Below are positions 48,757 through 64,000 of a DNA stretch of 64,000 bases, piece after piece. The notes below the pieces were generated by a model that had not been told where the DNA came from, searched no databases, and worked only from the letters and a program-made list of their open reading frames with translations. The translations under genes and the position numbers were made by a program. Source of the stretch: Roseburia sp. (GTDB taxonomy: Bacteria > Bacillota > Clostridia > Lachnospirales > Lachnospiraceae); assembly GCA_017937095.1 (NCBI GenBank), contig JAGBEG010000013.1, positions 124,001 to 188,000 of the forward strand. The letters are read 5' to 3'. The stretch's first letter is position 1, and each line of letters opens with the position of its first letter.

Positions 48757-50349
48757 TTATCTGCCGTTCTGCACCCCAAAATCACCGACGACAATTCCGT
48801 TTGCCAGCATCCTGCCGCCTCCCCCGCCATGCTCCAGCTCAAGGCTGTAGACAAAACCTCCATAAGGCGCTGTTCCTGCCGCTGCAACGGTCAGCTTCCT
48901 GCCCGCTTCACCATATACCGTATCTCCCGGCTTTAGTTCGCCCGCACGTATAAATCCATTTCCCTGATAGACCGGATGCTCCTTTGTCATCCGCACAACA
49001 TCGCCCTCTTCCGTTCGGATCAGTATAAGAGCTTCTTCCATGCCCTTCCATATGTTTTGCACCTTCACCGGTCGTCCGTCCTCCGGCTGCATGATCATCT
49101 CCCCGATGCTTATCTCTGAAATGCGTTTCTTGCTTCCATCCGCCATGCAGATCTGCGTGTCCTCCGCCAGACATCCCCACATCAGCGCGATTGGATACAG
49201 CCTCATCTCCTCTTCGCAGAAATCAGACGGGATATTGCCGTTTCGGCTGCTCAAATCCAGAAACGCTGTTTCCGTATGTTTTGGATTGTCCTTCTCCTCC
49301 ATCACAAGTTCCAGATGAAGATCCATATCGTAGAAAAACTTCTTCATATCTCCCGGCTGCAGCGTATGTTCCTTCCAGGGCGAGATAAGGCTGACCGTCG
49401 CAGTCCTTCGATCCTCCGACGCCTTAAATACAAATCCGCTCTCTATGTAATTCTCATGCAATCCCGCTATCAGCCTTACACCGCCGGATGTGCCGCTCTT
49501 ATCCGTAAGCGTGCAGAAAGACTGCGCCGCCCACAGTTCCCGGAACCGCCAGTTCTTCGCCGCGGTAAGCCGACACAAAAAAGGCACTTCGATGTGCGGC
49601 TGTCCTGCCTCCTTTTGTACATAGCAGACATAATCGCAGTCATGCAAATCCTCCGGTCTCCGGAACAGCGCAACCAGAACGTAACTGTCCGGATTGCTCT
49701 CCGAAAATGGCGGCGGCGTCTGTCCGCTTCCGTATACCGGAACCGGAGCGGGCTTTGCCGGATCGAATATCTGCGCTATGCACTCCTTTTTCGGCCATGC
49801 GTGTTCGTACTTTGAAAGCAGCTCGTCCAGCCGATACCGGAATCTGCTTACCTGACACGCGCTGTGTGTCCCCGCCTGATTCGTCCATAAAAATTGCGCA
49901 TAGGGTATGTAGTCTGCAATCTCCTCCTCGTTTCCCGCAAACTCCCACATAACGTCACAGCGAAGACTGCCTGTATCCGTTTCCTGCACGCTTCGCAGTT
50001 CCCGAAACGTCCCTTCCTTCTCCTCATACACCCAAAGCCGTATCGCAAGCTCACTGCACACTCCCTGCATATCCGCGCGGGCGCTAAAATATATGTGATA
50101 CCCTCCATCCGTCTCTGTCCCCGGCATATAAAAACAGCGGTCAATCAGACAATGACTGCTCCAGCCTGCGGCGGCAGGATTATCATTTTCAAGCAGCAGC
50201 GGTGCCCGGTCGTCATTTGCCTGCTGACGCAGCATTCCACACTTCCCAGCCTTTCCTGCACGCAGTCTTCCATCCGCCGCCAGCTCCGGCAATCTGCGGT
50301 ACTCATCCATTGCGATAACGTCTTTGTTCTTTCCGTTCGCTGTTTCCAT
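48757..50349 (-). CDS. Hint-domain protein, first gene of the giant operon
   Basis: A 530-residue protein. Residues 1-390 are mixed beta with no signal peptide and no known family. From about Cys393 to the end is a Hint (hedgehog/intein) domain: CLAEDTQICMADGSKKRISE, VRMTKEHPVYQGNGFIRA as the block-B region with its conserved histidine, and ANGIVVGDFGVQNG near the C-terminus. Such domains can self-cleave through the N-terminal cysteine. Here almost nothing follows the domain, so cleavage would release the N-terminal part rather than a C-terminal toxin. It starts about 48 nt after the predicted transcription start. Confidence 0.8.
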   Translation of the reverse strand: METANGKNKDVIAMDEYRRLPELAADGRLRAGKAGKCGMLRQQANDDRAPLLLENDNPAAAGWSSHCLIDRCFYMPGTETDGGYHIYFSARADMQGVCSELAIRLWVYEEKEGTFRELRSVQETDTGSLRCDVMWEFAGNEEEIADYIPYAQFLWTNQAGTHSACQVSRFRYRLDELLSKYEHAWPKKECIAQIFDPAKPAPVPVYGSGQTPPPFSESNPDSYVLVALFRRPEDLHDCDYVCYVQKEAGQPHIEVPFLCRLTAAKNWRFRELWAAQSFCTLTDKSGTSGGVRLIAGLHENYIESGFVFKASEDRRTATVSLISPWKEHTLQPGDMKKFFYDMDLHLELVMEEKDNPKHTETAFLDLSSRNGNIPSDFCEEEMRLYPIALMWGCLAEDTQICMADGSKKRISEISIGEMIMQPEDGRPVKVQNIWKGMEEALILIRTEEGDVVRMTKEHPVYQGNGFIRAGELKPGDTVYGEAGRKLTVAAAGTAPYGGFVYSLELEHGGGGGRMLANGIVVGDFGVQNGR

Positions 50350-50403
50350 ATACGCCCGCCCTTCTTTAGTGTGGTTACTACAGTGACATATTTACTTATT
50401 TTT

Positions 50404-50446
50404 ATTATAACTTCATTTTCTACAAATGCCATTCGATATGACGTAA
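50404..50446 (-). promoter_or_regulatory. Box-dependent promoter of the giant operon
   Basis: On the minus strand the 18-bp box TTACGTCATATCGAATGG (plus-strand 50429-50446) is followed by 19 nt and a perfect TATAAT (50404-50409). No TTGACA-like -35 is present. The box is identical to both copies in the inverted repeat at 28.3 kb, 22 kb away. Confidence 0.7.
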
Positions 50447-50484
50447 GCTGAAAAATGTGCCCATCATGCTATTTCCTATAGAGT

Positions 50485-50526
50485 AAAAAACCGGAGATAA
50501 ACGGCTTTTTAAAACCGTATCTCCGG
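50485..50526 (-). terminator. Rho-independent terminator of the methylase-TIR operon
   Basis: CCGGAGATA...TATCTCCGG forms a 9-bp stem, extended by CGG/CCG past a 2-nt bulge. On the minus strand a TTTTTTACTC run follows. It lies 7 nt after the TIR gene stop and before the giant-operon promoter. Confidence 0.8.
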
Positions 50527-50532
50527 TAATAT

Positions 50533-51294
50533 TTACAGTTTCACAAGATTGCTCGGATAAATATTTCTCGCCTTTCCTATGTCGTTAAATGTCCTTACCT
50601 CCGTCTTGGAAATCTGAAATTTCACATGGTCTCCGACCTGCAAATCGTCGTACATTCCCGCCCAGAAGAAAATCCACTCGCTGTCTGCCTGTCCGTTATC
50701 CAGCGGCTGATCTATCTGCCCCTTGATTTTATAGCAGCGGTATTTTTCCTGTACATGTCTGATTTCCGTGATGACCGTGTGATACCAGCCATCCGTATCT
50801 TTTTCCAGAATCGCATTTCCCGCTGTCAGCTTTTCAAACGTAGTCACATATTCCGGCAAATGTCTTGTAAATTCCGTGACAATCTGTGCATCGCAGATTC
50901 CATACCCGATAAACTCTCCAAAGACAGCGCTCAGTCCATCCCGGTCCAATTTCCGAATCTGCACTCCGGCAAGCGGCATATCCTTAAGCCGCTCAAACGG
51001 AAGCGTCGTCATCGGGATAAACCGTTTTCCCGCCATACTCCACCCGGCTCCCATTTCAATGAGGCACATTTTACTCCCCAGATACTCCTCGGTAATCAGG
51101 GATATGACTGCCGTAGAGTCCTGCAATTCTTTTCGAATGCGTTCCATAAAATTCTCCCCGGTATACAGATCTTCCACCGCGATCGTACAAAATATGTCGC
51201 TTCTGGGAATCCCCAGCGCCAACTGCAGAAATTCGATAAAATTTTCAACCAGTTCCTTATTCTTCGTGCTGTGACTCAGAAATATTTTCGCCAT
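50533..51294 (-). CDS. TIR-domain protein
   Basis: A 253-residue protein. Residues 1-140 form a TIR domain: IFLSHSTKNKELVENFIEFL, the AVISLITEEYLGSKMCLIEM segment with candidate catalytic Glu80, and IPMTTLPFERL. Bacterial TIR domains cleave NAD+ or make cyclic ADP-ribose isomers during anti-phage defence. The remaining 110 residues form an unassigned beta-rich domain (YRCYKIKGQIDQPL, HVKFQISKTEVRTF) that could be the sensor. AAGGAGG precedes the ATG. It follows the methylase-like gene by 31 nt and is ended by a strong terminator, so these two genes form one operon. Confidence 0.87.
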   Translation of the reverse strand: MAKIFLSHSTKNKELVENFIEFLQLALGIPRSDIFCTIAVEDLYTGENFMERIRKELQDSTAVISLITEEYLGSKMCLIEMGAGWSMAGKRFIPMTTLPFERLKDMPLAGVQIRKLDRDGLSAVFGEFIGYGICDAQIVTEFTRHLPEYVTTFEKLTAGNAILEKDTDGWYHTVITEIRHVQEKYRCYKIKGQIDQPLDNGQADSEWIFFWAGMYDDLQVGDHVKFQISKTEVRTFNDIGKARNIYPSNLVKL

Positions 51295-51325
51295 CTTCCC
51301 ACGCCTCCTTCTGTCATTCTTTCTT

Positions 51326-53128
51326 TCATTCTTTCTTTGATGCTTCCTTTAATTCCTGTTCCAGTTCCTGCTGCTTCGCCAGAAAACGAACCGTAAGCTC
51401 TCTCTGCTGCCTGTCGAACTCCAGCCGGTTCTGCCGCAGTTTTTCTCCGATTCTCTCCATCGCATCCATCGGATATGCCGGAATATCCAGATTCTTTAAA
51501 TTTGCATTGTTCAAAATCCGGATGGTCGTTCCAGACTGTATACTCTCCAGCGCCCTGCGCCCTTCCTCCGACTGCAGATAATCGTACAGCACATACGGAT
51601 GATACATCTGCCTGTCCACCCGGAGAATCGTAATGTTTCCACTGATATAGCTTACCATTTGCGGCGCATCTGCTATGGCAAGCTTGATCACCGTCCCCTT
51701 CGATGTAAGCAGGATGTCGTCCTCCCTGATTCGAAACTGCGGCTTCTCTATAAGCCTCGCCTCGTCAACATTTTCCGCCGATTCGTAGAGAATGTGCTCA
51801 TTCTGGATATCTTTTACATTGATAAACTTCACGCCGCCCTCGCTGACTCTGATCTCATCCGGCTTAAGCTGCGCGCCGCGCACAATCGCCGCCGCCTGCT
51901 CCAATTTCAGCGTCCTTGCGCCCGTGTCCGTCTGCGCGAGATAAGAAAGCGGCTTCCACGAAACCGTCTCCCGGTTCAGTTCTTCTCTACCGCAAATTAC
52001 GCTGATTCCTTCCAACTGGCGAAATTCACGAAACGCTTGTCTCGCAGCGTTTCTTCCTTCAGCGGAAAGCTCCCATGCGCCACGGTTCTGACGGCAGGAA
52101 AAGCGGCTGATGTCTATGAACAGAATCCTGTTCTGTCTCTCTATGGTCTTTCCTTTATGAAAAATCAAAAGCTCCGTCGTCGTATGTACATTGGCGTAAA
52201 GATTGGCAGGCAGCGTGATCACTGCTTCCAGCCAGTCATTTTCTATCACCTGCTGCCGCAACTGCTTCTCGTTTTCCCGGATCAATCCCCCGGTCGTGAC
52301 AAGCGCGCTCCCATAGCCTCCCTGCCGCAGCCTCCCAAGCATGTCCTCAATGAAAATCCAGTCCGCATATATTTTCTTATTGCAAAATCCTTTTATGCGG
52401 GCGTCCCTGCCATCGCACACAAGCGGTCTGTTCGTTCCGCGCGGAAGATCCGCTGTGATAAAATCGTACCGCTCCACCGCTTCGTCCGTTACCGTCTCTA
52501 AAATATTGCGCCGGATCACTTTACTCTCCCTCGCACCTGACAGATAAAGCCATACGCGCGCAATGCTGCAAAAAACAGGGTCTATCTCCTCGCCCGTATA
52601 AAACGCTTCCGGATTTCCGGCAGTCAGCCGCTCCCAAAGCTCATAGCCCGCATATGACATACCGGAGCACATATCTAACATATCTTTGAAATATCCGTCC
52701 TCGAAAAGGTCCCCCAAAAGCGTTTTGATGCAGTCCGGCGTAGTTGTAAACAGCCCCTCCCGCTCTGCCAGCACACAGAGCTGACGCTGCAGTGCATACG
52801 AGCTTTGCCGCAGCTCTCCCGTTTTCCACGCCTGTCCTAAGCTTCTGTGCAGCCAGGTCTGCAACGCCCTCACATCCTCTGCGTTCTTCCCCTGTTCAAG
52901 AAGCTCCCACGCAACCCTTTCACTGATCTGCAGGACGCTCTCCTTAAAATCATAATCCGGTACGCCTCGCACCGCCGCCGCCACATTCTCTCTGCAAAAG
53001 GAAATCTCCTCACCCATGTTCTGTTCCGCCCGTACCGTTTCCCAAAAGATGAGCAGGAGGATTGTGTAAAATGCCTGTTCGGGTGAAATATCGCTTTTTA
53101 TTTGCTTCCAATCGTATTCCAATGGCAT
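51326..53128 (-). CDS. N6-DNA methylase/specificity-subunit fusion with degenerate active site
   Basis: A 600-residue protein resembling type I HsdM joined to an HsdS-like target-recognition half. An N-terminal helical region (1-140) precedes the S-adenosylmethionine-binding segment MLDMCSGMSYAGYELW. The catalytic N/D-P-P-Y/F motif is replaced by ADLPRG near residue 226, so methylation may be lost. The ALVTTGGLIRENEKQLRQ and LPANLYANVHTTTELLIF segments are typical HsdM. From about 420, VKFINVKDIQNEH and REDDILLTSKGT resemble HsdS, with a coiled C-terminus. No restriction subunit is adjacent; its partner is the TIR gene. It may recognise DNA without modifying it. Confidence 0.78.
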   Translation of the reverse strand: MPLEYDWKQIKSDISPEQAFYTILLLIFWETVRAEQNMGEEISFCRENVAAAVRGVPDYDFKESVLQISERVAWELLEQGKNAEDVRALQTWLHRSLGQAWKTGELRQSSYALQRQLCVLAEREGLFTTTPDCIKTLLGDLFEDGYFKDMLDMCSGMSYAGYELWERLTAGNPEAFYTGEEIDPVFCSIARVWLYLSGARESKVIRRNILETVTDEAVERYDFITADLPRGTNRPLVCDGRDARIKGFCNKKIYADWIFIEDMLGRLRQGGYGSALVTTGGLIRENEKQLRQQVIENDWLEAVITLPANLYANVHTTTELLIFHKGKTIERQNRILFIDISRFSCRQNRGAWELSAEGRNAARQAFREFRQLEGISVICGREELNRETVSWKPLSYLAQTDTGARTLKLEQAAAIVRGAQLKPDEIRVSEGGVKFINVKDIQNEHILYESAENVDEARLIEKPQFRIREDDILLTSKGTVIKLAIADAPQMVSYISGNITILRVDRQMYHPYVLYDYLQSEEGRRALESIQSGTTIRILNNANLKNLDIPAYPMDAMERIGEKLRQNRLEFDRQQRELTVRFLAKQQELEQELKEASKKE

Positions 53129-53154
53129 GTGTGTTATCTCCTCTCTTGAGATTT

Positions 53155-53183
53155 ATGATACATGATTCGGGGGTGGTTGTCAA
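53155..53183 (-). promoter_or_regulatory. Consensus promoter of the methylase-TIR operon
   Basis: On the minus strand TTGACA, 17 nt, TATCAT: the -35 is perfect and the -10 one base off. GAGAGGAG precedes the ATG at 53128 by 9 nt. This separates the pair from the RADAR-like operon. Confidence 0.8.
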
Positions 53184-53271
53184 TTATTAATTATAATTCA
53201 TTTACATTAATTTGTGTTATTATTATACTGCCATGCGATAGACAGTGCTTCTGTTTTCTCCCTCTACCAAA

Positions 53272-54717
53272 CTAATCAATACTGTTCAATTCCTGATACA
53301 ATGTCTTTGCAAAGGAATCCGTCATTCCACTGATGAAGTCAGTTACCATCAAAAAACGCAAATACAAATTTTCCGCTTCATCCTCCGACTTCGCATGTTC
53401 GTAATCCTCTTTATAATTGGCGGAAATAATATTGACATACTTGCGGTCTGCTTTCGACATTTTGTAATCGTCTGTCTCCTCTCCCCAATACAAAACTGCA
53501 TAGATAAAGTCATTCAACAGACCACTGATTATTTTCTTCGCAGCCAGCTCGAGTTTTAAGATTTCTTTGTCGTCGTAAACAAACTCTTTCATAGCCCCTT
53601 TCAAAATCTCTATTGTGTCCTGATGAAACGTGTCGTAAAACATATCTGCCTCATATTTTCCACTCATAATTGCCTTATAACTATTTGAGAATCGAAACGC
53701 TACAACATACATTAACCACTTACGAACAAGTACCATCCATTTCTGAAATGCCACCAAATCGTTTTCTACACTTCGTTCCTTCTCAGTCATTCGACGTTCC
53801 AGATCATCTAAAAGCTCCTGTGGATATTTTACCCTATTCTTAGGAAGCATCTTAACTTCCCTCTCAAAATAACTCACAAACTCATCCAAAGTAAACAACC
53901 TCTTTTTCAAAGCATCTTCTAAATCTGCAGTTGCATATGCAATATCATCCGCTGCCTCCATTAAATATGCCAATGGATGCCGCAAATATTCTACACCATT
54001 GATTGTTCCTGTTGCCGTGCAGATTGTCTTCATATTTTCTCGTTCTGCATAAAAATAGCCCAATTTATGCTTTTTCGCATCCTTATCATCTTTATCGAAT
54101 TCGACGGAACTTGTCGGATATTTTATCAGCGCATTCAGCACCCCATAAGACAAGTTAACATCATATCCCTCAGCATTATTTCTTGCCTTTGACAAAATCC
54201 TTAACGCTTGTGCATTACCTTCAAAGTTCTCCAAATCCTTACGCATCTGTTCACTCAGCAAATCCTTTATCAGCTTTCCTTTAAATGAAAATTCGTCCTT
54301 TTGAAATTCCCTTTGAAACCATTCTCCGATCACCACCTCCCCAAAATGTCCAAATGGAGGATTTCCAATATCATGCAGTAATCCTGCGCACGATAGCACA
54401 ATCGGAATATTCCTTACCAAAAATGCGTTGTTCTTAAATTCCTCTTTCAAATACGCCGTCTTATCTACTGTAATCATGATTCCCAGTTGTCTGGCGATTG
54501 TGGCTACCTCCATCGAATGTGTCAGACGCGTTCTCACAAAATCACTCTTATCCAGCGGAAATACCTGCGTTTTATCCTGCAATCTCCGAAATGCTGCACT
54601 TGATATAATTTCCTGATAATCCTTTTCCACTTCATCAATCGGATAGCGGTCAAACTGAGGAGGTTCTTTTTCTTTCGCCACCTGTCTCTCTAAAGATAAT
54701 AAATTCTTCCATTCCAT
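53272..54717 (-). CDS. dGTPase-like HD phosphohydrolase
   Basis: A 481-residue protein of the deoxyguanosinetriphosphate triphosphohydrolase family. It begins with the family region YPIDEVEKDYQEIISSAAFR followed by LQDKTQVF. HD-type metal ligands are His67 (RLTHSMEV) and His115-Asp116 (LLHDIGNPPFGHFGE), with EGNAQALRIL and the AADDIAYATADLEDA segment carrying the last aspartate. Such enzymes cut dNTPs to nucleosides plus triphosphate, and defence versions starve phages of dGTP. I use the ATG at 54717 because AAGGGAG lies 9 nt upstream and the family N-terminus begins there. The frame is open to 54789. It follows rdrB by 75 nt. Confidence 0.88.
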   Translation of the reverse strand: MEWKNLLSLERQVAKEKEPPQFDRYPIDEVEKDYQEIISSAAFRRLQDKTQVFPLDKSDFVRTRLTHSMEVATIARQLGIMITVDKTAYLKEEFKNNAFLVRNIPIVLSCAGLLHDIGNPPFGHFGEVVIGEWFQREFQKDEFSFKGKLIKDLLSEQMRKDLENFEGNAQALRILSKARNNAEGYDVNLSYGVLNALIKYPTSSVEFDKDDKDAKKHKLGYFYAERENMKTICTATGTINGVEYLRHPLAYLMEAADDIAYATADLEDALKKRLFTLDEFVSYFEREVKMLPKNRVKYPQELLDDLERRMTEKERSVENDLVAFQKWMVLVRKWLMYVVAFRFSNSYKAIMSGKYEADMFYDTFHQDTIEILKGAMKEFVYDDKEILKLELAAKKIISGLLNDFIYAVLYWGEETDDYKMSKADRKYVNIISANYKEDYEHAKSEDEAENLYLRFLMVTDFISGMTDSFAKTLYQELNSID

Positions 54718-54792
54718 AGTATTATTCTCCCTTCTTGACAACCTCAAATCACTCTTTTTGAATACCTTTGCTACACCAGTTCTATACAACGT

Positions 54793-57453
54793 CTAGCCCC
54801 TATCTTCCGCAAAACTAAATTCCAACCCCATTTTCCTCACGTTGTCAATCCATTGATATATCATTGTTCGATTATACTTGTTATTTCCATTCTCATCTTT
54901 TGCCTTCTCCAGCGCTAATGCCAACATTGCATATTCATTTTCCAGATACGTAGAGAAAATTCCTTGATCATCCGTGTTAATACATACTGGAAGCTGCGGG
55001 CAATTTTCCAGTTCGTTCTGGGAAGTCACCAATCCCAAATTGTAAAAACCAAAGATCGGATGCTTATCATAACGCTTAAAAGGTCCTATCAGATAGTTTG
55101 ACGATGGGTTTGTTTCTATTCCTATTCCCAGCTTTCCAATCCACTTCTTCATCTCATGCTGTACTTCCTTGACGCATTGAATCAAACGATAATCTGCCCG
55201 TATCTCAATTACCTTCTCCCCCTCCTTCTTTGCCTCTCCACAGTAATGATATAAGTAATACAAATATGCACATTCCGGATTATATCTGATTTGATAATCC
55301 GTCGGTTCCTGCCGATTCACAGCATAGCGATTCCATTCTGATATATCCTCATGTTCCTTAAAATATCCGTTAATATAGTATTCCGGATTATCTCCCCGCA
55401 ATTTCCACGCTGCATAATACTCTGAAATTCTAAAATGGAAATTACTATTACAATATCCCTCTACAATCACCTCATTATCTTTTTTAAAATGCTCTCTGGC
55501 TGCTTTTATCGTTTCTTGAAAAGTTCCGTCGCAAACATGATTTCCATAAATCAGCCTAAAATATTTGCTATATTCCTGTTCAATAAAAAGCGTGACATCC
55601 TCATATCCGTTTAATTTAAACTTTTTAATTTTATAGTATAGCCAAACCAAATTATCTAAATAATCCTGTTGGCCAATTAGTATTTTTCTGTTCTTTACCT
55701 GATAATATTCTTCAACGTCAATTCCAAGCGCCAATGCATGTCCGATTCTTGAACCGCAATCCATCTGCAAGAAACGTATCATTTCATCAATCGCCCGCAA
55801 CCCATCAATAATATCAAGGCAGTCTTCTCCAATATGATATGTCAAGTGTAGTTGTTCAAGTCCTTCATTATCAGAGTTTTCTCCAAAGTTCTCTTTGGGA
55901 TACACGATATGATTTCTCAGATAACGGTATGTCTGCGCAAAAACCTCCGGTCTGCATCCAATTTCCTTAGCACATGCATCAATCCCCTTCAGCCTCTTCG
56001 CCTCTTTGGGGTACTTTTCCCGTAATTCCGCAATAGCCTGCGCCTGTTTTCGCAAGGATTTTCGTTTTTCGAAATGACGACACATAATGTCACTTTGCAG
56101 ATTCTTTTTATTATCCTTTTCTTTAATAAAATGGAATACATAAAAATATCTTTTCTGCAGTTCCTCATCATTGCCAAGCATTCTTTCAAACTTTCTAATA
56201 TAGTCACGATTCTCCTCTGCTGAATTTTTAGGTGCAATACGTGCTTCCAGATGAATAATGTTCTGATTTAGAATTGTTCCCTTGACCGCCATTTTAACAT
56301 AGCTCTCTTCAAATGGCGTACCTTCTATAAAATCCTCCTTTCGATCCTGATATCTCGCAAAATTATCAAATCCCATGTTGTCATTTGTCTGCACTAATTC
56401 CGAGCGAATATTCTCTTTAATCACAAGATAAGCATAAAATAAATTGAAATATTTTTTTAATTTCTGATTCTTCGAGTATATCTTTTGAAACATGCTATAC
56501 ATGAACCATCTTTCACCGGATAGTACCTCATTTACCTCGTCATATCCCGTTACATGATGATAATTTCCACTTTGCGCATAATCAAGTACACTACATTCTC
56601 CGAACTCGAGATTTCTGTATAAAGAAATATTACGTTGTAACTGAGTTCTATAAAACAATATCTCAGTTTCATCCTGTAGCAGAAATTCCACGAGCTCGTC
56701 TGATTCCTCATCCTGCAGCAAAAAAATTCTGTTTGTCAATTTAGCGAACAAAAAACACCGGATAAGAGCCGCTTTCAGATAAGAAACATATAATTTTTCT
56801 TCTCCACTCCCAGTATTATAAGTTGTTGACAGACGTCTTTCCTCATACTCCTCTAACAAAGTACGAAAATTCTTTTTTACTACATCGTTCATCATGCTGA
56901 TCCATGAGAGCGGAAATTGCGGCGCAGATCCTTTTAAGTGAAAATGATTGTCCGCCATTCCCTGTGACAGCAGCCTATTCAAATGAATATTATTGTGCCT
57001 GATTACGGGACGCCACGAGAACTTTCTATTCACATTAATATAACGAATATCCTTATATGCCAAATACGCCGTGGTAAACACATCCTCATCCAATTCATGT
57101 GAGGTCATTCTCCATCTGAGCATATGTTCATACTGGCATACCGGCTCCCCGTCAATCTCCTGCAGCACGCGGACTGCAAACAGCAGAATGGCGTCAAAGA
57201 TACTAAAGCTGCCCCTATGACCGCTTGTCCCCCTTTCATAGCCTCTGACATAATCCGCCTGTTCCTCGTATTCATTTTGGATATAATAGAACAGATTTTC
57301 CAACTCATCATTAGAATAGTTTTTCACATAATATCCGGCAAGCTTAACAAAATTCTCCTCTGTTATATTGTCATACTGCACCTTTTCATTCAGTATTTCC
57401 CGTGACGGGATTTTGCTTAAAACTATACTTAACACAGACCGAAGATTGTCCAT
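54793..57453 (-). CDS. rdrB: RADAR adenosine deaminase RdrB
   Basis: An 886-residue protein with an adenosine deaminase core. Zinc ligands appear in DNHFHLKGS (about residues 169-171). The catalytic acid is in LTYHIGED near 537, GSRIGHALALG near 570 carries another ligand, TNPSSNYLIG is the substrate loop, and INTDDQGIFSTY near 823 completes the metal site. Size and order match RdrB, which forms large assemblies and deaminates adenosine nucleotides (ATP/dATP to ITP/dITP, and RNA adenosines) during phage infection. AGGAGG lies 6 nt before the ATG at 57453, which shares one base with the rdrA stop (TGATG). Coupling to rdrA is therefore strong. Confidence 0.88.
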   Translation of the reverse strand: MDNLRSVLSIVLSKIPSREILNEKVQYDNITEENFVKLAGYYVKNYSNDELENLFYYIQNEYEEQADYVRGYERGTSGHRGSFSIFDAILLFAVRVLQEIDGEPVCQYEHMLRWRMTSHELDEDVFTTAYLAYKDIRYINVNRKFSWRPVIRHNNIHLNRLLSQGMADNHFHLKGSAPQFPLSWISMMNDVVKKNFRTLLEEYEERRLSTTYNTGSGEEKLYVSYLKAALIRCFLFAKLTNRIFLLQDEESDELVEFLLQDETEILFYRTQLQRNISLYRNLEFGECSVLDYAQSGNYHHVTGYDEVNEVLSGERWFMYSMFQKIYSKNQKLKKYFNLFYAYLVIKENIRSELVQTNDNMGFDNFARYQDRKEDFIEGTPFEESYVKMAVKGTILNQNIIHLEARIAPKNSAEENRDYIRKFERMLGNDEELQKRYFYVFHFIKEKDNKKNLQSDIMCRHFEKRKSLRKQAQAIAELREKYPKEAKRLKGIDACAKEIGCRPEVFAQTYRYLRNHIVYPKENFGENSDNEGLEQLHLTYHIGEDCLDIIDGLRAIDEMIRFLQMDCGSRIGHALALGIDVEEYYQVKNRKILIGQQDYLDNLVWLYYKIKKFKLNGYEDVTLFIEQEYSKYFRLIYGNHVCDGTFQETIKAAREHFKKDNEVIVEGYCNSNFHFRISEYYAAWKLRGDNPEYYINGYFKEHEDISEWNRYAVNRQEPTDYQIRYNPECAYLYYLYHYCGEAKKEGEKVIEIRADYRLIQCVKEVQHEMKKWIGKLGIGIETNPSSNYLIGPFKRYDKHPIFGFYNLGLVTSQNELENCPQLPVCINTDDQGIFSTYLENEYAMLALALEKAKDENGNNKYNRTMIYQWIDNVRKMGLEFSFAEDRG

Positions 57454-59933
57454 CAAATGCCTCCTGACCACTCATCTTCATCCGATTTCTGTGTATATGG
57501 CACAGTATGTGCCATAATACTCACTGCCAACATCTTCAAGAATTCCATATCTTTTTCATTTCCCAATATTTTTTGCGTCAGTTTAAATTCCAAAAATCGT
57601 TCTTGATACCCGGTTTCAAACATAGTATCATATTCTTTCAAACTACTACTCAGCACCTCGAAAAAATTCTGAATCTGCGCAATAACTGTCTCGGCACATT
57701 CCTGCTTCACCGCTCCTGTTCCCAGACGATTTTGCAGCGTTTTCCCCAACTTTATCACATATTCCAAATTATTAATCGGTAGTAACGGTTCATTTTGATA
57801 TGATTTTAACTCTTCTATAATGGAGTACGCCTTGGGCAATACATGTTCTACATCACCTTTCTTTCGAGTAGCTGGTCCTTCATAAAGCAACTGTGGCACT
57901 TCTTTTACAAATTCTTCAACCAGTTTTGCCCCATTCATAATATTAAGAACAAATCCGGATAAACTAAACACCCCCTGATATTCTCCGGAAAGATCTAATT
58001 CATTCTGGCTTACCTTTTTCCATTTATGTACGTCAATCAGTTCCTCATTATCCCTCAATTGATAAAACAACAGCATATACTGATAATTTATTAGTTTAGG
58101 ACCATTTTTCGCAAATAAGTTGGAAACTGACTTCCATTCCTTATTATTATACTCTCCCTCAAGTGTCAGTTTCAGGCAGCCATTCATTTTCTTTATATCA
58201 CTTCTTGCAATCCTTAAAAACTTTCCACTTTCCTTGTCATCTTTTCTCATTGCAATCATTGGTGGTAACATCATTTTCTCCCAACCCCCAAATATGCCAT
58301 CCTGATAGTAATGTAAAAGCTGTTCCCTCTCTTTTTCCAATTCTCCCGCATTAACGCAACCCTTAATTCGATTTATCCTGGCAGAAATACAAACACTAAA
58401 GTAGATTATACTCAAAGCAGAAAACACCTGTTCACTCAAAGTATTGTAGATCGAATCTGCCAATATCTCAACCAACGGCCGATTCTGATTTGTCTTTTCG
58501 CTTTTGGCAAAATAAGCCTTCACTTGATGTATCTGTCCTTCCGTCTCCAACAATTCTATCTCAGTAAACATTTTCTGCGCCTCGGAGCCCAAATATTTTT
58601 TGCACAGCCACGGAAATTCCTCATTCAAAAACCACTTCAAGTTGTCGTTGCACGCATCATTGTAGTTTTCTTTCCCAACCTTTTTTAAGCTTGACAGTTC
58701 ATTCATTTTATTTATCCATGTATTTAGCTCCCGCATTGTATCCGGCGTCAAATAATATAAACATTTGCTTTTCTCATAAAAACAGACTCCCAGACACTCC
58801 TCCATCTGTTTACGCACAATTCTTTGCAGCGTTCCCCCCTGTGAAATTTTCGGTGCTCTCGCTTCCTCTTCTGCAGCATAAGATATCTCCACCTCTTCCT
58901 GCTCGAAGAATTTCCACTTCTTTCCTGAGTTTAACATAATCCGCCGCTGTGCCGGAACAATTTTCTCCAGATATTCCCTTGATAAGTTTACAATGTATTC
59001 CCGCTTCTCCGTTACATCAATCATCTTTTCAAATTCTTCGCTATAATGATTGATACATATTTTTTCCAACTGCTCATAATTTGCCGACATTAATACGATT
59101 ACATTAGGAACCATCAAATATTTTCTGATTTGATCCAAAAGTAAAAATCCGTTTTTAATGTTCATATCCAAATCATCAATCGAAATAATTAAAAAATGAT
59201 TTTTCTTTGTTATCTTTCCGTTAATTCCCGAATACGTCATAATCTCCAGATACTGCTCAATCAATTTTTCAAAGGATTGCTTTAAATTCGAGGTCAGCGA
59301 CATTTTCTGTAATGTGTCAATATACGCATCACTGTCCTTCTCCATAAGATCTCCCTTACTCCGCACATTTTTCAAGCATTCATACACCTTGCTGAACTGC
59401 ATCTGAATCTGTCTTTTCTTAAATGCATAATCTTCGTTTCGTTCAAGTCCAATATTTCCATAACTCCGTTTTTCTTCATTTCTCCATTTCTCCAGCATTT
59501 TAGACAATACATTATCCAAAATCCCTTCCTTACCATCCATCAAAGACGCATCTATATACTCTATTCCGGTAAACATACAAGCCTCACCGTCAAATTGCAG
59601 TCCGGCTAATTTCGTATCCCGCTCTTGCGATTCACTGTTTCTATAGTAATCCTTCAAAAACTCCATGTAACTTAGCATCACAGACGTCTTCCCAGTTCCC
59701 CGATCACCAGTAAAAAACAAAATATTGCAAATCTGTTTTTGATTTCTCAGATTTGTTCCATTTCCTGTTTTTCCTTCCTTATTATCCCAATATTTTTTTG
59801 TTTCTGAAACTATCTCCTGAGTCCTTTTATGCGCATTCTGGTAAGTCTCATAGTGTATTGAAGTCTTGAAATCCTCCGAAGCTTCATATTTTATACTGGG
59901 TGTCCTGTCAATACCTAATTTAGGCTTTTCCAT
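57453..59933 (-). CDS. rdrA: RADAR P-loop ATPase RdrA
   Basis: An 826-residue ATPase. Walker A is FTGDRGTGKTSVML near residue 77. Walker B is IISIDDLDMN near residue 249, followed by a sensor-like VIVLMSANYEQ. These features and the size fit the AAA/KAP-like RdrA of RADAR, which forms a ring that loads the deaminase RdrB. The long C-terminal half is helical and has no recognised motif. GAAAGGAG precedes the ATG. Codons are AT-rich compared with the polysaccharide region, consistent with horizontal transfer. Confidence 0.86.
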   Translation of the reverse strand: MEKPKLGIDRTPSIKYEASEDFKTSIHYETYQNAHKRTQEIVSETKKYWDNKEGKTGNGTNLRNQKQICNILFFTGDRGTGKTSVMLSYMEFLKDYYRNSESQERDTKLAGLQFDGEACMFTGIEYIDASLMDGKEGILDNVLSKMLEKWRNEEKRSYGNIGLERNEDYAFKKRQIQMQFSKVYECLKNVRSKGDLMEKDSDAYIDTLQKMSLTSNLKQSFEKLIEQYLEIMTYSGINGKITKKNHFLIISIDDLDMNIKNGFLLLDQIRKYLMVPNVIVLMSANYEQLEKICINHYSEEFEKMIDVTEKREYIVNLSREYLEKIVPAQRRIMLNSGKKWKFFEQEEVEISYAAEEEARAPKISQGGTLQRIVRKQMEECLGVCFYEKSKCLYYLTPDTMRELNTWINKMNELSSLKKVGKENYNDACNDNLKWFLNEEFPWLCKKYLGSEAQKMFTEIELLETEGQIHQVKAYFAKSEKTNQNRPLVEILADSIYNTLSEQVFSALSIIYFSVCISARINRIKGCVNAGELEKEREQLLHYYQDGIFGGWEKMMLPPMIAMRKDDKESGKFLRIARSDIKKMNGCLKLTLEGEYNNKEWKSVSNLFAKNGPKLINYQYMLLFYQLRDNEELIDVHKWKKVSQNELDLSGEYQGVFSLSGFVLNIMNGAKLVEEFVKEVPQLLYEGPATRKKGDVEHVLPKAYSIIEELKSYQNEPLLPINNLEYVIKLGKTLQNRLGTGAVKQECAETVIAQIQNFFEVLSSSLKEYDTMFETGYQERFLEFKLTQKILGNEKDMEFLKMLAVSIMAHTVPYTQKSDEDEWSGGI

Positions 59934-59963
59934 TCCGATTTTCTCCTTTCGTTTTCAAAAAAA

Positions 59964-61202
59964 TTAACAACAAATCACATTGAATTTTTCTAATATTTCT
60001 TCTATAATTTCATCTCTTACTTCTTCGTTCTTCGGCAGCATACAATGAACTAATTTATCAAAATCTTTTCGTGTTTTCAGTCCTTCATACAAATCATTCA
60101 ACTTCACATCATATCGTTTGATCAATTCCTCACTATCAATATTGCTTCTGTATAATTCTCTCATTTTTTTACATGTTTTATATTCATACTCTATTTCCCT
60201 GATTGAAATACGGCTATCCCCTGTTCTTCCATCCAATATATTCATTATTTTTCCGTAACCAACTAGTGCCTCCATCCATTTTCCACGCAATTCCAGCGAA
60301 ACAGCCAGCTTATATATTGCCCTATAGTATCTACGATCACAATCATATGCCTTCTTATAATACTTAAGCGCCCTTTCGTTATCTCCATACACCTTCTCGT
60401 ATATATGCCCAATATCATACAGAATTTCCGGTCTTTCTTCATATTCCGTTGCCTCCTTATAATATTCCGGAGCATATTTGCTTTCGATGGGGCTCATCGT
60501 CGAAATCTTCCCCGCCAGAACGTAAACTGACGGTGTCCTGCCACAACACCTAACAAGTTCCTGCCACTCCACCATCAATTCTTCTACAGCAGTAATCCTG
60601 CTCATAAAACTTCTGTCTCTTACACCAGCATCAACATACTTGCAATAAAGTCGTATAAATAGGATATGTCCTTTTTTATCATTTCCACCCTTACTTTGAG
60701 GCATCTGTTTCAAATCAGCCAAGGTACTCTGGCAAATATCAGAAATCATTCCGTCCCAGCGCCCTTTTCCCTGCTGTGCCACTTCATGAAAAAGCCACGA
60801 AGCACTCCACATTCTATTCCTCATAAAAATATCCAGGAATTTTCGAAACTGCTGTTTTTCATAGTGGACGGGAACCAGATAATCAATTACTTTTCCAAAC
60901 CCTTCTCCTGCTTCATCCCATCGTTGTACCTGAGCCACGTCTTTTCTCTTTTTCTTTACGAACGAATCAAATGTCTTGTTCTTTTTTACAAGATAAAAGT
61001 AGTTTGGAAATATGTCCGGCAATAACTGCTTGACATCCTCCGATCCGAGGATAAATAAGCATGGTTCTTCTGTGGATAGCCTCTGCCAATCATGCTCTAT
61101 CTCCTGTGCTGACACCCATACTCCACACGCTTCAAAAAAATATTTCCAGAAGCAATAGGTTACATTCTCTGTACTGCTGTAAGAAATGAATATTCTGTCC
61201 AT
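59964..61202 (-). CDS. TIR-like/TPR protein
   Basis: A 412-residue protein. The first 130 residues look like a diverged TIR domain (RIFISYSSTENVTYCFWKYF, then a CLFILGSEDVK strand), but I cannot place a catalytic glutamate with confidence. Residues about 225-340 contain two or three TPR-like helical pairs (PEILYDIGHIYEKVYGDNERALKYYKKAY). It lies between the HAM1-SIR2 gene (59 nt) and rdrA (30 nt) in the same orientation. It may be an adaptor or second effector, with the TPR part recognising a phage or RADAR protein. The function is inferred. Confidence 0.7.
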   Translation of the reverse strand: MDRIFISYSSTENVTYCFWKYFFEACGVWVSAQEIEHDWQRLSTEEPCLFILGSEDVKQLLPDIFPNYFYLVKKNKTFDSFVKKKRKDVAQVQRWDEAGEGFGKVIDYLVPVHYEKQQFRKFLDIFMRNRMWSASWLFHEVAQQGKGRWDGMISDICQSTLADLKQMPQSKGGNDKKGHILFIRLYCKYVDAGVRDRSFMSRITAVEELMVEWQELVRCCGRTPSVYVLAGKISTMSPIESKYAPEYYKEATEYEERPEILYDIGHIYEKVYGDNERALKYYKKAYDCDRRYYRAIYKLAVSLELRGKWMEALVGYGKIMNILDGRTGDSRISIREIEYEYKTCKKMRELYRSNIDSEELIKRYDVKLNDLYEGLKTRKDFDKLVHCMLPKNEEVRDEIIEEILEKFNVICC

Positions 61203-61261
61203 CCAAATTTTCCCTTTTCTGTTATTTTATGACGGTAAACCTAAAAGGATTTCGTTCCCCC

Positions 61262-62641
61262 TTAGTCTGTGCACAACGCCTTCAAAAATTCCAGTGTCCC
61301 CTCTTTCTTATCTGCATTCTCACCCGAAAATGCAATAATGTCATTTCCCATAAATACCTGTTTTTGTATTTCGTTCGGTGTAGCTGTGAAAATATATGCT
61401 GTTTTTGTGCTGTTTCCCCAATTTCGCCTAATACGATAGAGCAGCAGTTTAATATTTATGTCCGACATACTATATCCCAAAAACAACACATAATATTTCA
61501 GCATATCCGCTTGAAGCTGTATATCCATAAACGACTGAAAATCCATCCTCTCAAAATACTGGCTTTCCGTTAATATTATTGTCTTCTCATCTGTAAAATC
61601 CCCATGAAATTTCATAATACGCGGATTCCCTTCTTTCACCTTCTCCATGTCATCAATCACCGCCACCTTCGCGTACTCCCGCCCCTTTATCTCATAGTAT
61701 TTTTCAATAAGAGCGTCATAATTTGTAGTATATATAACAGGGAAATCCAATTTTTCAATCATCTGATATATTTCTGAGGTTTCTAATTTTTTCAACACTT
61801 CTGGTTCTATGTTTATGTCAAATCTCTTTCTTAAACTTTCATACAACCGTTCTGGTGACTTCTTCCTCAAGAATTCTGCCAGCATCATATTATCTCCGTA
61901 ACTCTGGAAAAGTTCTCCCTCATATCCCTCCTCGCTTCCTAAATCCTCAATCAGTTTATCCCACGATGGTAAACCAAGAGATGCGGAAATACCTGCTCCA
62001 ACAAACAGCATCACCTTCTTCTTTCTAATCAATTCTTTTAATTCACATATCTTGTCATTCTCTGTCTCATAATCCAGATTAGGTCCCGTCAGGAAACCTC
62101 TCAGTTCATCCCACGCCTTCTTTCTCATTGATCTTTTACATTTTTGATTTCCCGGACTGGCATAGGTCTTTTGCTCCGGATTATTTTCCTTCGGCACAAA
62201 AATCCCATCCCATCCAAAGCCTTCTTCCACCTTATCTACACTCTCAACAATTTTTCCCGCTTCCATGCCTTGCCCAATGTACATTTTCTTTCCGTCACAG
62301 TAACAAAAAGCAGATATCGCTTCCGCTCCGAACTTATCTTTGAAACAACAATATTTTACAATCTCCTCATTTCCTATGCTGTTGCAAAAATAACTGGTCT
62401 GCAAATCGGGAAGGTTCTGATACGCCTCAATCCTTAGTGCTGTATGTTCTACAAGAACAGGACGTTTTAATTCCTTAAATGCCTCCATAGCCTTGCGTCG
62501 GATCAATGTTTCTATATCCTTTGCCTGAATCTCCGGGATTTCCATTCTCTTCCAATCTATCTGTGGACAATCATCCTCTATGATTTCTTTTATTTCTTCG
62601 TATTTCTTTTCATTGCCCGAAACAAAATATATCCTCTGCAT
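61262..62641 (-). CDS. HAM1 (ITPase-like)-SIR2 fusion protein
   Basis: A 459-residue two-domain protein. Residues 1-183 form a HAM1/RdgB inosine-triphosphate pyrophosphatase-like domain: SGNEKKYEE at 8-15 (SxNxxK), and FGWDGIF at 141-147. The family's E-D-T/D-D-S acid is E64-H65-T66 here, and the S-H-R motif is S170-M171-R172, so hydrolysis is doubtful. Residues 200-459 form a SIR2-like NADase: GAGIS at 214-218, TTNYD with Asn306 and Asp308, and FHGDF with His345. It probably binds (d)ITP and consumes NAD+. The ATG at 62641 is better spaced from AGAAGG than that at 62650. It is the first gene of the operon. Confidence 0.85.
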   Translation of the reverse strand: MQRIYFVSGNEKKYEEIKEIIEDDCPQIDWKRMEIPEIQAKDIETLIRRKAMEAFKELKRPVLVEHTALRIEAYQNLPDLQTSYFCNSIGNEEIVKYCCFKDKFGAEAISAFCYCDGKKMYIGQGMEAGKIVESVDKVEEGFGWDGIFVPKENNPEQKTYASPGNQKCKRSMRKKAWDELRGFLTGPNLDYETENDKICELKELIRKKKVMLFVGAGISASLGLPSWDKLIEDLGSEEGYEGELFQSYGDNMMLAEFLRKKSPERLYESLRKRFDINIEPEVLKKLETSEIYQMIEKLDFPVIYTTNYDALIEKYYEIKGREYAKVAVIDDMEKVKEGNPRIMKFHGDFTDEKTIILTESQYFERMDFQSFMDIQLQADMLKYYVLFLGYSMSDINIKLLLYRIRRNWGNSTKTAYIFTATPNEIQKQVFMGNDIIAFSGENADKKEGTLEFLKALCTD

Positions 62642-62687
62642 ATTTTTCATACCTTCTTTTGTTTAAAATTCTCTTTTCAGTGCGCAT

Positions 62688-62699
62688 GGTTTACAAACC
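62688..62699. promoter_or_regulatory. Short dyad in the RADAR-operon leader
   Basis: GGTTT and AAACC flank two bases just after the predicted transcription start of the operon. The position fits a small operator. No regulator is known. Confidence 0.3.
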
Positions 62700-62713
62700 T
62701 AGTTCTAATATAA

Positions 62714-62742
62714 AGTATATGCACACCGTCTATGTTTGTCAA
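62714..62742 (-). promoter_or_regulatory. Consensus promoter of the HAM1-SIR2/RADAR operon
   Basis: On the minus strand TTGACA, 17 nt, TATACT. The -35 is perfect and the -10 one base off. Transcription would start near 62707 and run into the HAM1-SIR2 gene. Confidence 0.8.
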
Positions 62743-62777
62743 TACGATTCGGTGCAAATTCCACATGAACTTGTTGT

Positions 62778-62885
62778 TTATGCAATGTTGAACCACAACA
62801 TGGAGGAAACAAAGGCAAACCATATATGGTCATGTGTTTTAAACCGTCCACTAAGATAATGCCCAGAACATTGGATTTTTTCCAT
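62778..62885 (-). CDS. Possible 35-residue small ORF
   Basis: An ATG at 62885 follows TTGGAGG by 8 nt, an excellent ribosome site. The frame encodes 35 residues (MEKIQCSGHYLSGRFKTHDH, then a hydrophobic end) and stops just upstream of the RADAR-operon promoter. It may be a small protein, or the start of a gene truncated when the island inserted. I do not recognise it. Confidence 0.3.
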   Translation of the reverse strand: MEKIQCSGHYLSGRFKTHDHIWFAFVSSMLWFNIA

Positions 62886-63406
62886 AAATAAAACCTCCAA
62901 CTGAGTAATTTTATCTTACATCAGTTCGAGGTCAGATGTATGCCCTATAATCTTTAGCCACATAATCCATAATAACATTGATAAATCATTCTCCCAAATC
63001 GGAATCATGTGCTAACCATACTGTACAACAACAACATCTTCACTACGCTTCCCAACACCACTTATTAAGCTTCGGATAATTTTCTCAATGATTGAAAAAT
63101 ACTAATTTTATTGCAATACCTTTGCCCTACCCTCTTTTTTATATCCGGCATCTGCTAATTGTCGACTTTTTTAGTTAAGTCACCAGCAACATATACTTGA
63201 TATCGCGATATATATTCCCTGACCTTATCTAAAAATTTCTTTCACCGCTCATATCGCTCCTGAAAGCAATATAACTTTGACTTTTTTACAAAATTGGAGC
63301 AGACCTGCATGGTAAAGCAAGATTTGCTCCAGTTTTCTTTCTCTTCGTTTTGTTCCTCGTAGCCTTCAAATATGCATTATACCATTACCGCTTGCTATGA
63401 ATCAAA
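62886..63406. other. Unassigned AT-rich stretch, possibly decayed coding sequence
   Basis: About 520 bases without a convincing gene. Both strands have short frames broken by stops. Minus-strand fragments read like remnants (for example EYISRYQVYVAGDLTKK) but I cannot assign a family. TACATC and GATGTA arms occur near 62930. No terminal inverted repeats or transposase motifs are visible. Confidence 0.4.
63295..63331 (-). terminator. Possible terminator after the 63-residue gene
   Basis: TGGAGCA and TGCTCCA form a 7-bp stem around a long loop. On the minus strand ATTTTGT follows. It lies 76 nt past the stop codon at 63407. The U-tract is short, so the call is weak. Confidence 0.3.
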
Positions 63407-63598
63407 CTACTTCCTCTTCTTCGGGATAGTGCGCCCACTTTCGCACACGTGTTCATAGCCAAAAAAAGATTTCGTCAGCCCCGGCATCTGATCTCTTTCC
63501 TCCGCCTGAATCCCCATCGTTACCTGCTGCGGCGAATCAATCTGCGGTACCTGCCCATTCTGTAACCCGGCAATTAAATTCAAAAATTCATCATCCAT
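63407..63598 (-). CDS. 63-residue protein of unknown function
   Basis: A small soluble protein starting MDDEFLNLIAGLQNGQ with a glutamine/proline-rich middle and a basic end (TIPKKRK). GAGGAGGGAG lies 5 nt before the ATG at 63598, which I prefer over the in-frame ATG at 63619. It follows the two-helix membrane protein by 24 nt, so they are probably co-transcribed. No family was recognised. Confidence 0.55.
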   Translation of the reverse strand: MDDEFLNLIAGLQNGQVPQIDSPQQVTMGIQAEERDQMPGLTKSFFGYEHVCESGRTIPKKRK

Positions 63599-63622
63599 TA
63601 TATCTCCCTCCTCTCTCATTTA

Positions 63623-63970
63623 TTACGTCATCATATAGAATATATAAAATAAAAAGGAAACACCTACCATGACCAATCCCATTTTATATTGCTTTATGCG
63701 GCTGTCATTCACTGCTTTATTTTGTTTTGATGCAATGATAATATACTTTATTATTGCGCCGCAAAACATTTCTTCCTCTAACGCCATATATTCCGGCTTA
63801 TAAAAATCTTCTACTTTTAAAATCGTATACTCATTCGTCTTTATGGTCATAAACATAAACACCATCGAGACTATTGCAAATAAAACAATTAATATCAACA
63901 ATCCTATCTGTAATTCTGTATTCATTATACCATTATTTTTTATTTGATTTCCGTAATCAGATATATTCAT
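63623..63970 (-). CDS. Two-helix membrane protein of unknown function
   Basis: A 115-residue protein with membrane helices at about residues 22-43 (GLLILIVLFAIVSMVFMFM) and 96-114 (MGLVMVGVSFLFYIFYMM), separated by a charged loop of about 50 residues with CGAIIKYIIIASKQNKAVND. A start at 63925 is also possible; neither has a strong ribosome site. The layout of helix, loop, helix resembles small membrane effectors of defence systems, but I cannot place it in a named family. It may belong to an operon continuing beyond the window. Confidence 0.55.
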   Translation of the reverse strand: MNISDYGNQIKNNGIMNTELQIGLLILIVLFAIVSMVFMFMTIKTNEYTILKVEDFYKPEYMALEEEMFCGAIIKYIIIASKQNKAVNDSRIKQYKMGLVMVGVSFLFYIFYMMT

Positions 63971-64000
63971 TCTATCCAGTACCAGAAAAACGTATGTAGC

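Follow-up and report, generated by a model that had tools for sequence, protein, structure and literature searches.

A gene array of the RADAR family was analysed on contig JAGBEG010000013.1 of Roseburia sp. (GenBank assembly GCA_017937095.1, positions 124,001 to 188,000), a stretch of 64,000 nucleotides that is referred to here as the window and in whose coordinates positions are given. Five consecutive open reading frames (ORFs) on the minus strand (53272–62650) form a single array, as the initial annotation of this DNA had claimed, and encode in this order a fused HAM1–SIR2 protein, a TPR protein, a divergent RdrA, a divergent RdrB and a dGTPase. The HAM1, SIR2, RdrA, RdrB and dGTPase labels are borne out jointly by Pfam, PADLOC and NCBIfam and the TPR label weakly. 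The HAM1–SIR2 and TPR genes are separated by 59 base pairs (bp) and the TPR and RdrA genes by 30 bp; the RdrA stop codon overlaps the probable RdrB start (ATG 57453), and 75 bp separate the RdrB gene from the probable dGTPase start. The consensus promoter of the initial annotation was recovered as a promoter-like site (TTGACA-17-TATACT, 62714–62742, minus strand) that agrees with 11 of 12 consensus positions and lies 63 bp ahead of the first start codon. A second such site (53183–53155) stands directly before the next transcription unit. The two were the best (11/12) of a scan over positions 50300–64000 that did not as a whole rise above shuffled sequences (44 sites versus 37.7, standard deviation 6.4), and both are consensus matches only. 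The system is a RADAR variant with a Kongming-type effector; it is real and recurring and is undescribed in the open-access literature searched. The merging of two defence designs in one operon, which had been proposed from this array, recurs in four other genomes, and the five loci are referred to below as RADAR-linked.

The first gene (61262–62650, minus strand) encodes 462 amino acids; the 459 residues assigned earlier correspond to the second ATG (62641). Pfam places Ham1p_like (E = 3.7e-27, residues 7–184) and SIR2_2 (E = 1.4e-26, residues 305–430) in this one ORF, in keeping with the fusion described previously, and the comparison with solved structures delimits a KomB-like part at about residues 5–187 and a KomC-like SIR2 part at about 200–460. 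The best sequence matches in the PDB are KomC (E = 2.6e-54; entries 8zsf, 8zsg and 8zsh) and KomB (E = 6.2e-23); when the HAM1 half was searched alone, KomB (E = 1.2e-23) came ahead of PDB entry 1b78 (Mj0226) and of human ITPA. An AlphaFold2 model was obtained with a mean predicted local distance difference test score of 85.5 and a predicted template modelling score of 0.68. With this model Foldseek returned KomC (8zsf, TMt 0.87) and the KomBC complex with bound deoxyinosine triphosphate (dITP; 9xvc, 0.87, and 8zsi, 0.88), the HAM1 half matching KomB (8zsg, 0.83). The SIR2 half keeps TTNYD and KFHGD; the His of KFHGD aligns with KomC His146, the residue mutated in 9xvc, and the SIR2 Asn and His are conserved in all five RADAR-linked loci. 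A KomB-type HAM1 signature and, by sequence and fold match, a KomC-type SIR2 domain with the catalytic His are thus both present, and on the homology and the predicted fold the protein is a single-chain counterpart of Kongming KomB plus KomC. The Kongming link drawn in the initial annotation, from deaminase to HAM1 and SIR2 through dITP, is supported by the available text of the Kongming papers (PMC12774641, PMC12948488), according to which dITP activates KomB–KomC and leads to the destruction of nicotinamide adenine dinucleotide (NAD+).

Within the HAM1 half the active site has changed. The conserved Asp of the ITPase family is catalytic; it is present in human ITPA, in 1b78 and in a canonical RdgB that the same genome encodes separately, and it is replaced by His69 in the window protein. 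The position is likewise His in the four other RADAR-linked and in all 20 KomA-linked HAM1 rows, and His (13) or Gln (4) in the 17 remaining SIR2-linked rows. Asp is therefore absent from all 41 other SIR2-linked HAM1 sequences compared, which include some near-identical loci (HAM1-only rows are cut short in this alignment, A5). In the next RdgB motif (SHR), Met takes the place of His in five of five RADAR-linked rows, in 19 of 20 KomA-linked rows (the other being cut there) and in 13 of the 17 others. Retained in the window protein are the Asn and Lys of the first motif, Glu-x-Gln and Trp-Asp. Because the catalytic Asp is replaced, the HAM1 half is taken to be a receptor and not an enzyme, one that probably senses inosine nucleotides instead of removing them. 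The earlier view of HAM1–SIR2 as the reader of the signal is accordingly supported by the KomB/KomC homology, with the correction that the HAM1 half is probably non-catalytic. A different role would be that of a detoxifying ITPase that shields the cell from the inosine triphosphate (ITP) and dITP made by RADAR, with SIR2 as a separate effector or guard. The family names of HAM1 proteins, as ITP/dITP pyrophosphatases, and the toxicity of overexpressed RdrB noted in the available text of PMC9994260 would suit such a role, against which stand the loss of both the catalytic Asp (to His) and the SHR His (to Met) in all five RADAR-linked copies, the presence of the canonical RdgB and the fact that the nearest solved relative is KomB. 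It was rejected as the main explanation on the Asp-to-His change, and we consider it very improbable.

The RdrA gene (57453–59933, minus strand) encodes an AAA+ ATPase of 826 amino acids that matches NF041743 (E = 6e-19, 68 bits; curated cut-off 600) and the PADLOC RdrA model (E = 5.5e-12). Walker A and B are present, and their columns (GxRGxGK and DD.D) are invariant in six RdrA rows, one of them truncated at a contig end. The adjoining RdrB gene (54793–57471, minus strand) encodes 892 amino acids from GTG 57471 or 886 from the probable ATG, and matches NF041744 (E = 3.7e-55, 188 bits; curated cut-off 800) and the PADLOC RdrB model (E = 1.4e-33). Its HxH, H, E, H and DD pair, which comprise zinc ligands and the catalytic Glu, are kept in all five RADAR-linked loci. 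The window thus contains an RdrA-family ATPase with Walker A and B next to an RdrB-family deaminase with zinc-site and catalytic residues. Two identities on which the initial annotation had made its proposal depend, namely that of the 886-residue protein as a deaminase and that of the fused N-terminus as HAM1, both held at the level of sequence comparison. Since RdrA and RdrB score below the curated cut-offs, the system is named 'divergent RADAR' and is not assigned to the NCBIfam equivalogs; for comparison, a C-terminal RdrB identity of 24–28% between distinct RADAR systems is given in the available text of Duncan-Lowey et al. (PMC9994260).

The TPR protein (59964–61202, minus strand; 412 amino acids) gives weak TPR matches and has an alpha/beta N-terminal domain, which in the structural model is an alternating alpha/beta fold of moderate confidence. 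It had been described as 'TIR-like/TPR', of which the TPR part stands on these matches and the TIR-like part found no match in Pfam, hhalign or Foldseek. The N-terminus alone matched nothing in Pfam up to E = 1; comparison by hhalign with the TIR protein encoded in the window gave a probability of 0.4%, a weak test, since one side comprised two sequences and the other a single one; and Foldseek listed 50 PDB matches that track the TPR part, with no TIR protein among the rows listed for PDB and BFVD. The structural model is built on only three sequences, and the TIR label is unconfirmed for this domain. TPR homologues stand at the corresponding position in three RADAR loci of the genus, and two copies occur in L060 (see below). 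Because the three loci (genomes G412, G431 and G450) carry TPR–RdrA–RdrB without HAM1–SIR2, the TPR gene counts among the core RADAR genes of the lineage and not as part of the HAM1–SIR2 module. The five-gene set that was initially treated as one unit is thereby qualified: by comparison of the loci, HAM1–SIR2 and the dGTPase look like additions to a TPR–RdrA–RdrB core. A possible function of the TPR protein would be that of an infection sensor or of an RdrA adaptor.

The last gene (53272–54789, minus strand; probable start ATG 54717, 481 amino acids) encodes an HD-family dGTPase that matches PRK01096 above its cut-off (E = 8.9e-139), and a second dGTPase gene is found elsewhere in the genome. 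The labels given earlier to RdrA, RdrB and the dGTPase thus agree with the NF041743, NF041744, PADLOC and PRK01096 matches, those of RdrA and RdrB lying below the curated cut-offs. Like the anti-phage dGTPases and CloA of Clover, a system in which the dGTPase is a regulated defence effector (available text of PMC12265719), it is an HD-family dGTPase within a nucleotide-centred defence operon. Unlike the anti-phage dGTPases, it matches the Dgt equivalog PRK01096 best and not the antiphage_dGTPase model, and in contrast to Clover no nucleotidyltransferase is found by Pfam among the operon genes.

Genome contigs were scanned with an alignment of KomC-type SIR2 domains, which yielded 342 relatives; the best 80 were analysed and all counts of HAM1+SIR2 loci refer to these. 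A HAM1 gene or domain lies beside SIR2 in 33 and is missing from 47 (including L055, which is cut within HAM1 by a contig end). KomA accompanies 14 of the 33 and RdrB four, while 15 have neither in the available stretch; KomA and RdrB were never found together. In the four RdrB-bearing loci the genes lie on one strand, again without KomA in the available stretch. L060 (Lachnospiraceae UBA11962) reads TPR–RdrA–RdrB–HAM1SIR2–TPR–RdrA up to the contig end, and its second unit shares the window order HAM1SIR2–TPR–RdrA (identity 48% for HAM1, 55% for SIR2, 35% for TPR and 54% for RdrA). Directly ahead of this unit, the more distant TPR–RdrA–RdrB unit (L060:126–6817) makes up the first of two tandem RADAR modules. 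L134 (Marinisporobacter) consists of HAM1SIR2, a weak RdrA-like gene, an unknown gene and RdrB, and both L076 (Rahnella inusitata) and L088 (Enterovibrio) read RdrA–RdrB–HAM1–SIR2, with 148 and 303 bp, respectively, between RdrB and HAM1. RdrA and RdrB exceed the NCBIfam curated cut-offs in L076 and L088 and fall below them in L060 and L134. The ham, sir, koma, rdrA, rdrB and tpr profiles were built partly from loci that were later scored, so that E-values at those loci are inflated; the RADAR loci are supported independently by BLAST and NCBIfam.

Other neighbourhoods were also seen among these loci. HAM1–SIR2 without KomA or RADAR stands beside a PF06189 5'-nucleotidase in Alcanivorax (L058:8409–9380) and Chitinimonas (L094:10964–11914), possibly a third nucleotide-metabolising partner of HAM1–SIR2. 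In L050/L063 (genome G719 and [Clostridium] polysaccharolyticum) a HAM1 whose catalytic position is Gln and a SIR2 lie between AIR-carboxylase and AIRS-family genes of purine-synthesis type. KomC-like SIR2 with no HAM1 neighbour found accounts for 46 of the best 80 loci (for example L068, L080 and L098), many of them from Mesorhizobium.

A tree was calculated from 51 SIR2 sequences, which took in 12 of the 46 other HAM1-less SIR2 loci and in which L055 was labelled as HAM1-bearing. To fit its starred branches, the RADAR label must change at least four times. A single clade of the five RADAR-linked SIR2 domains was rejected (approximately unbiased test, p = 4.9e-14), as was a tree in which the three from Bacillota were held together (p = 1.1e-05); the window, L060 and L055 group together with good support. 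The label is no more clustered on the tree than shuffled labels are (500 of 500 shuffles as low). Because the changes may be gains or losses and some branches are long, the rejection of the clades is firmer than any exact position.

RADAR is rare, having been found in 270 of ∼38 000 genomes according to the available text of PMC9994260. Among 62 genomes of the same genus RdrB was present in five (a weak sixth fragment in G402 was left out of the count); only the genome of the window matched across HAM1 and SIR2, six others matching SIR2 alone at 26–30% identity. HAM1–SIR2 as a fixed component of RADAR in the genus was rejected on these counts. HAM1–SIR2 queries matched five of 397 genomes in a family sample, with HAM1 in only one other genome (G719), and four of 391 in a class sample, where the three others showed SIR2 with no HAM1 match nearby; in a phylum search of 398 genomes RdrB was found at E = 1e-30 in its own genome only. 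KomA was found neither in the array nor, at E = 0.01 in a search made without a positive control, elsewhere in the genome. Viral contigs gave no match in a single-protein scan, 11 loci in a scan with the SIR2 alignment (five with KomA and none with RdrB) and one RADAR locus, without HAM1, in a scan with the RdrB alignment; phage records gave one weak SIR2 match. HAM1–SIR2 matches occurred in 311 plasmid records, of which a Pantoea record (no deaminase within 6 kb) and a Vibrio record (KomA) were inspected. RdrB occurred in seven plasmid records, with HAM1–SIR2 in none of the four inspected (two from Rhizobium and Pantoea At-9b were left out). A Rahnella query matched 82 of 5426 E. coli genomes, across HAM1–SIR2 among the matches listed, and the one inspected is a KomA locus. 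A solitary rdrB lies between IS1 and IS3 in E. coli HeN100 (L148, 5399–8152), its DNA being 76% identical to the Enterovibrio rdrB over 1.1 kb.

The array adjoins a fused N6-methylase and type I specificity protein (51326–53128) with its own promoter-like site, which is followed by a TIR protein with a match to the SpbK model (50533–51294); both are further defence-type genes of the island. Beyond them, the C-terminus of a 530-amino-acid ORF (48757–50349) resembles, by eye from its translation, a Hint/intein-type domain.

Several observations count against reading the five genes as one RADAR system with a HAM1–SIR2 effector. RdrA and RdrB of the window are both under the curated cut-offs. Co-occurrence, which the initial annotation had suggested counting, is rare from the RADAR side: a further 16 RdrB loci were examined, 12 of which have an RdrA match, and neither HAM1 nor KomC-like SIR2 was found in their available flanks, some of them short. 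RdrB accompanies four of 33 HAM1+SIR2 loci and none of 46 HAM1-less SIR2 loci, at a Fisher p of only 0.027. Neither deaminase is seen in 15 of the 33 loci; several of these end at a contig edge within 3 kb upstream, others have more than 9 kb on both sides, and for this reason other partners or trans-acting signals probably exist. The RdrA-like gene of L134 is short and weak (590 amino acids, E = 2.7e-15) and the first-motif Asn is missing from the L134 HAM1. The tree does not separate gains from losses of the RADAR link, and dITP-contact residues were compared through motifs only and not against the bound structure. The 15 deaminase-less loci, the N6-methylase/specificity and TIR genes next to the array and the occurrence of HAM1–SIR2 elsewhere beside 5'-nucleotidase or purine-type genes could mean that HAM1–SIR2 is an independent two-domain defence unit, a mere neighbour of RADAR in a defence island that reads dITP of other origin. 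This is made unlikely by the shared strand, the short gap and the single promoter-like site in the window, by the recurrence of HAM1SIR2–TPR–RdrA in L060, by RADAR pairings in separate parts of the SIR2 tree, by the mutual exclusion of KomA and RdrB in the 33 loci and by the rarity of RADAR itself.

The preferred model, in which RdrB makes (d)ITP and HAM1–SIR2 responds to it by destroying NAD+, is the best available because RADAR makes dITP and Kongming signals by dITP; we give it a probability of roughly 0.77. Gene content, the retained active-site residues, the KomB/KomC homology and the recurrence of the pairing are observed, it is known from published work that other RADAR systems produce dITP and that dITP activates KomBC, and from these we infer both steps for the present protein set as well as all roles of the TPR protein and the dGTPase. 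The available text of PMC9994260 reports ITP and dITP within 5 min in infected cells with RADAR, and dITP at more than 15 times dATP at 15 min; E. coli RdrB acts on ATP and dATP and not on AMP, and giant RdrA–RdrB complexes are known from other RADAR systems. According to the available text of PMC11645235, Cad1, a CRISPR deaminase, raises ITP and not dITP. When a phage infects the cell, RdrA, possibly aided by the TPR protein in the role of sensor or adaptor, would activate RdrB, which would convert ATP into ITP and dATP into dITP by deamination. An inosine nucleotide, in all likelihood dITP, would then be bound without hydrolysis by the HAM1 half, which would switch on the SIR2 half to cleave NAD+ and abort the infection. 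RADAR would thus stand in for KomA, and no phage nucleotide kinase would be needed, since RdrB acts on triphosphates. The dGTPase may add nucleotide depletion or limit the signal. Layered guard logic is found in other defence systems, and HAM1–SIR2 might by that precedent be a fail-safe in the operon, held off by RADAR and killing only when a phage blocks RADAR; direct activation is simpler, because what RADAR makes is already known as the ligand that activates the homologous KomBC complex, and we regard a fail-safe as scarcely probable.

Homology to KomB and KomC links the window HAM1 and SIR2 modules to Kongming; both systems have His for the catalytic Asp and Met for the RdgB His, and in both a gene of an adenine-nucleotide deaminase family accompanies the modules. 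The window modules differ in lying on one chain, with RdrA–RdrB in place of KomA and with the TPR protein and the dGTPase in addition; KomA starts from dAMP and acts together with a phage kinase (available text of PMC12774641 and PMC12948488), whereas E. coli RdrB acts on triphosphates. Relative to known RADAR, the pair with its Walker and zinc-site residues is alike but divergent, and HAM1–SIR2, the TPR protein and the dGTPase are in none of the three subtypes (standalone, Csx27-associated and SLATT-associated) named in the available text of PMC7699616. The SIR2 NADase fold is shared with Thoeris ThsA and other SIR2 NADases; here, however, the partner domain is HAM1 and both sequence and fold are nearer to KomC. 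No description of HAM1–SIR2 with RADAR was found in the open-access literature, which was searched through titles and abstract openings, subscription papers and most preprints lying outside.

It seems likely, if somewhat less so than the model for the window itself, that HAM1–SIR2 is a portable inosine-nucleotide receptor–NADase that RADAR systems have acquired in several separate events (roughly four by the SIR2 tree, with gain and loss not distinguished). In those lineages RADAR would act as second-messenger immunity, its deaminase supplying the signal instead of, or in addition to, poisoning the nucleotide pool. What causes abortive infection after the build-up of inosine nucleotides was left open in the available text of the RADAR structure paper (PMC9994260); a dITP-receptor NADase in RADAR operons would be a direct and testable answer for part of the family. 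The findings further suggest that one messenger serves two defence systems which were described separately and which exchange deaminases, and they make dITP a candidate general alarm molecule of bacterial immunity.

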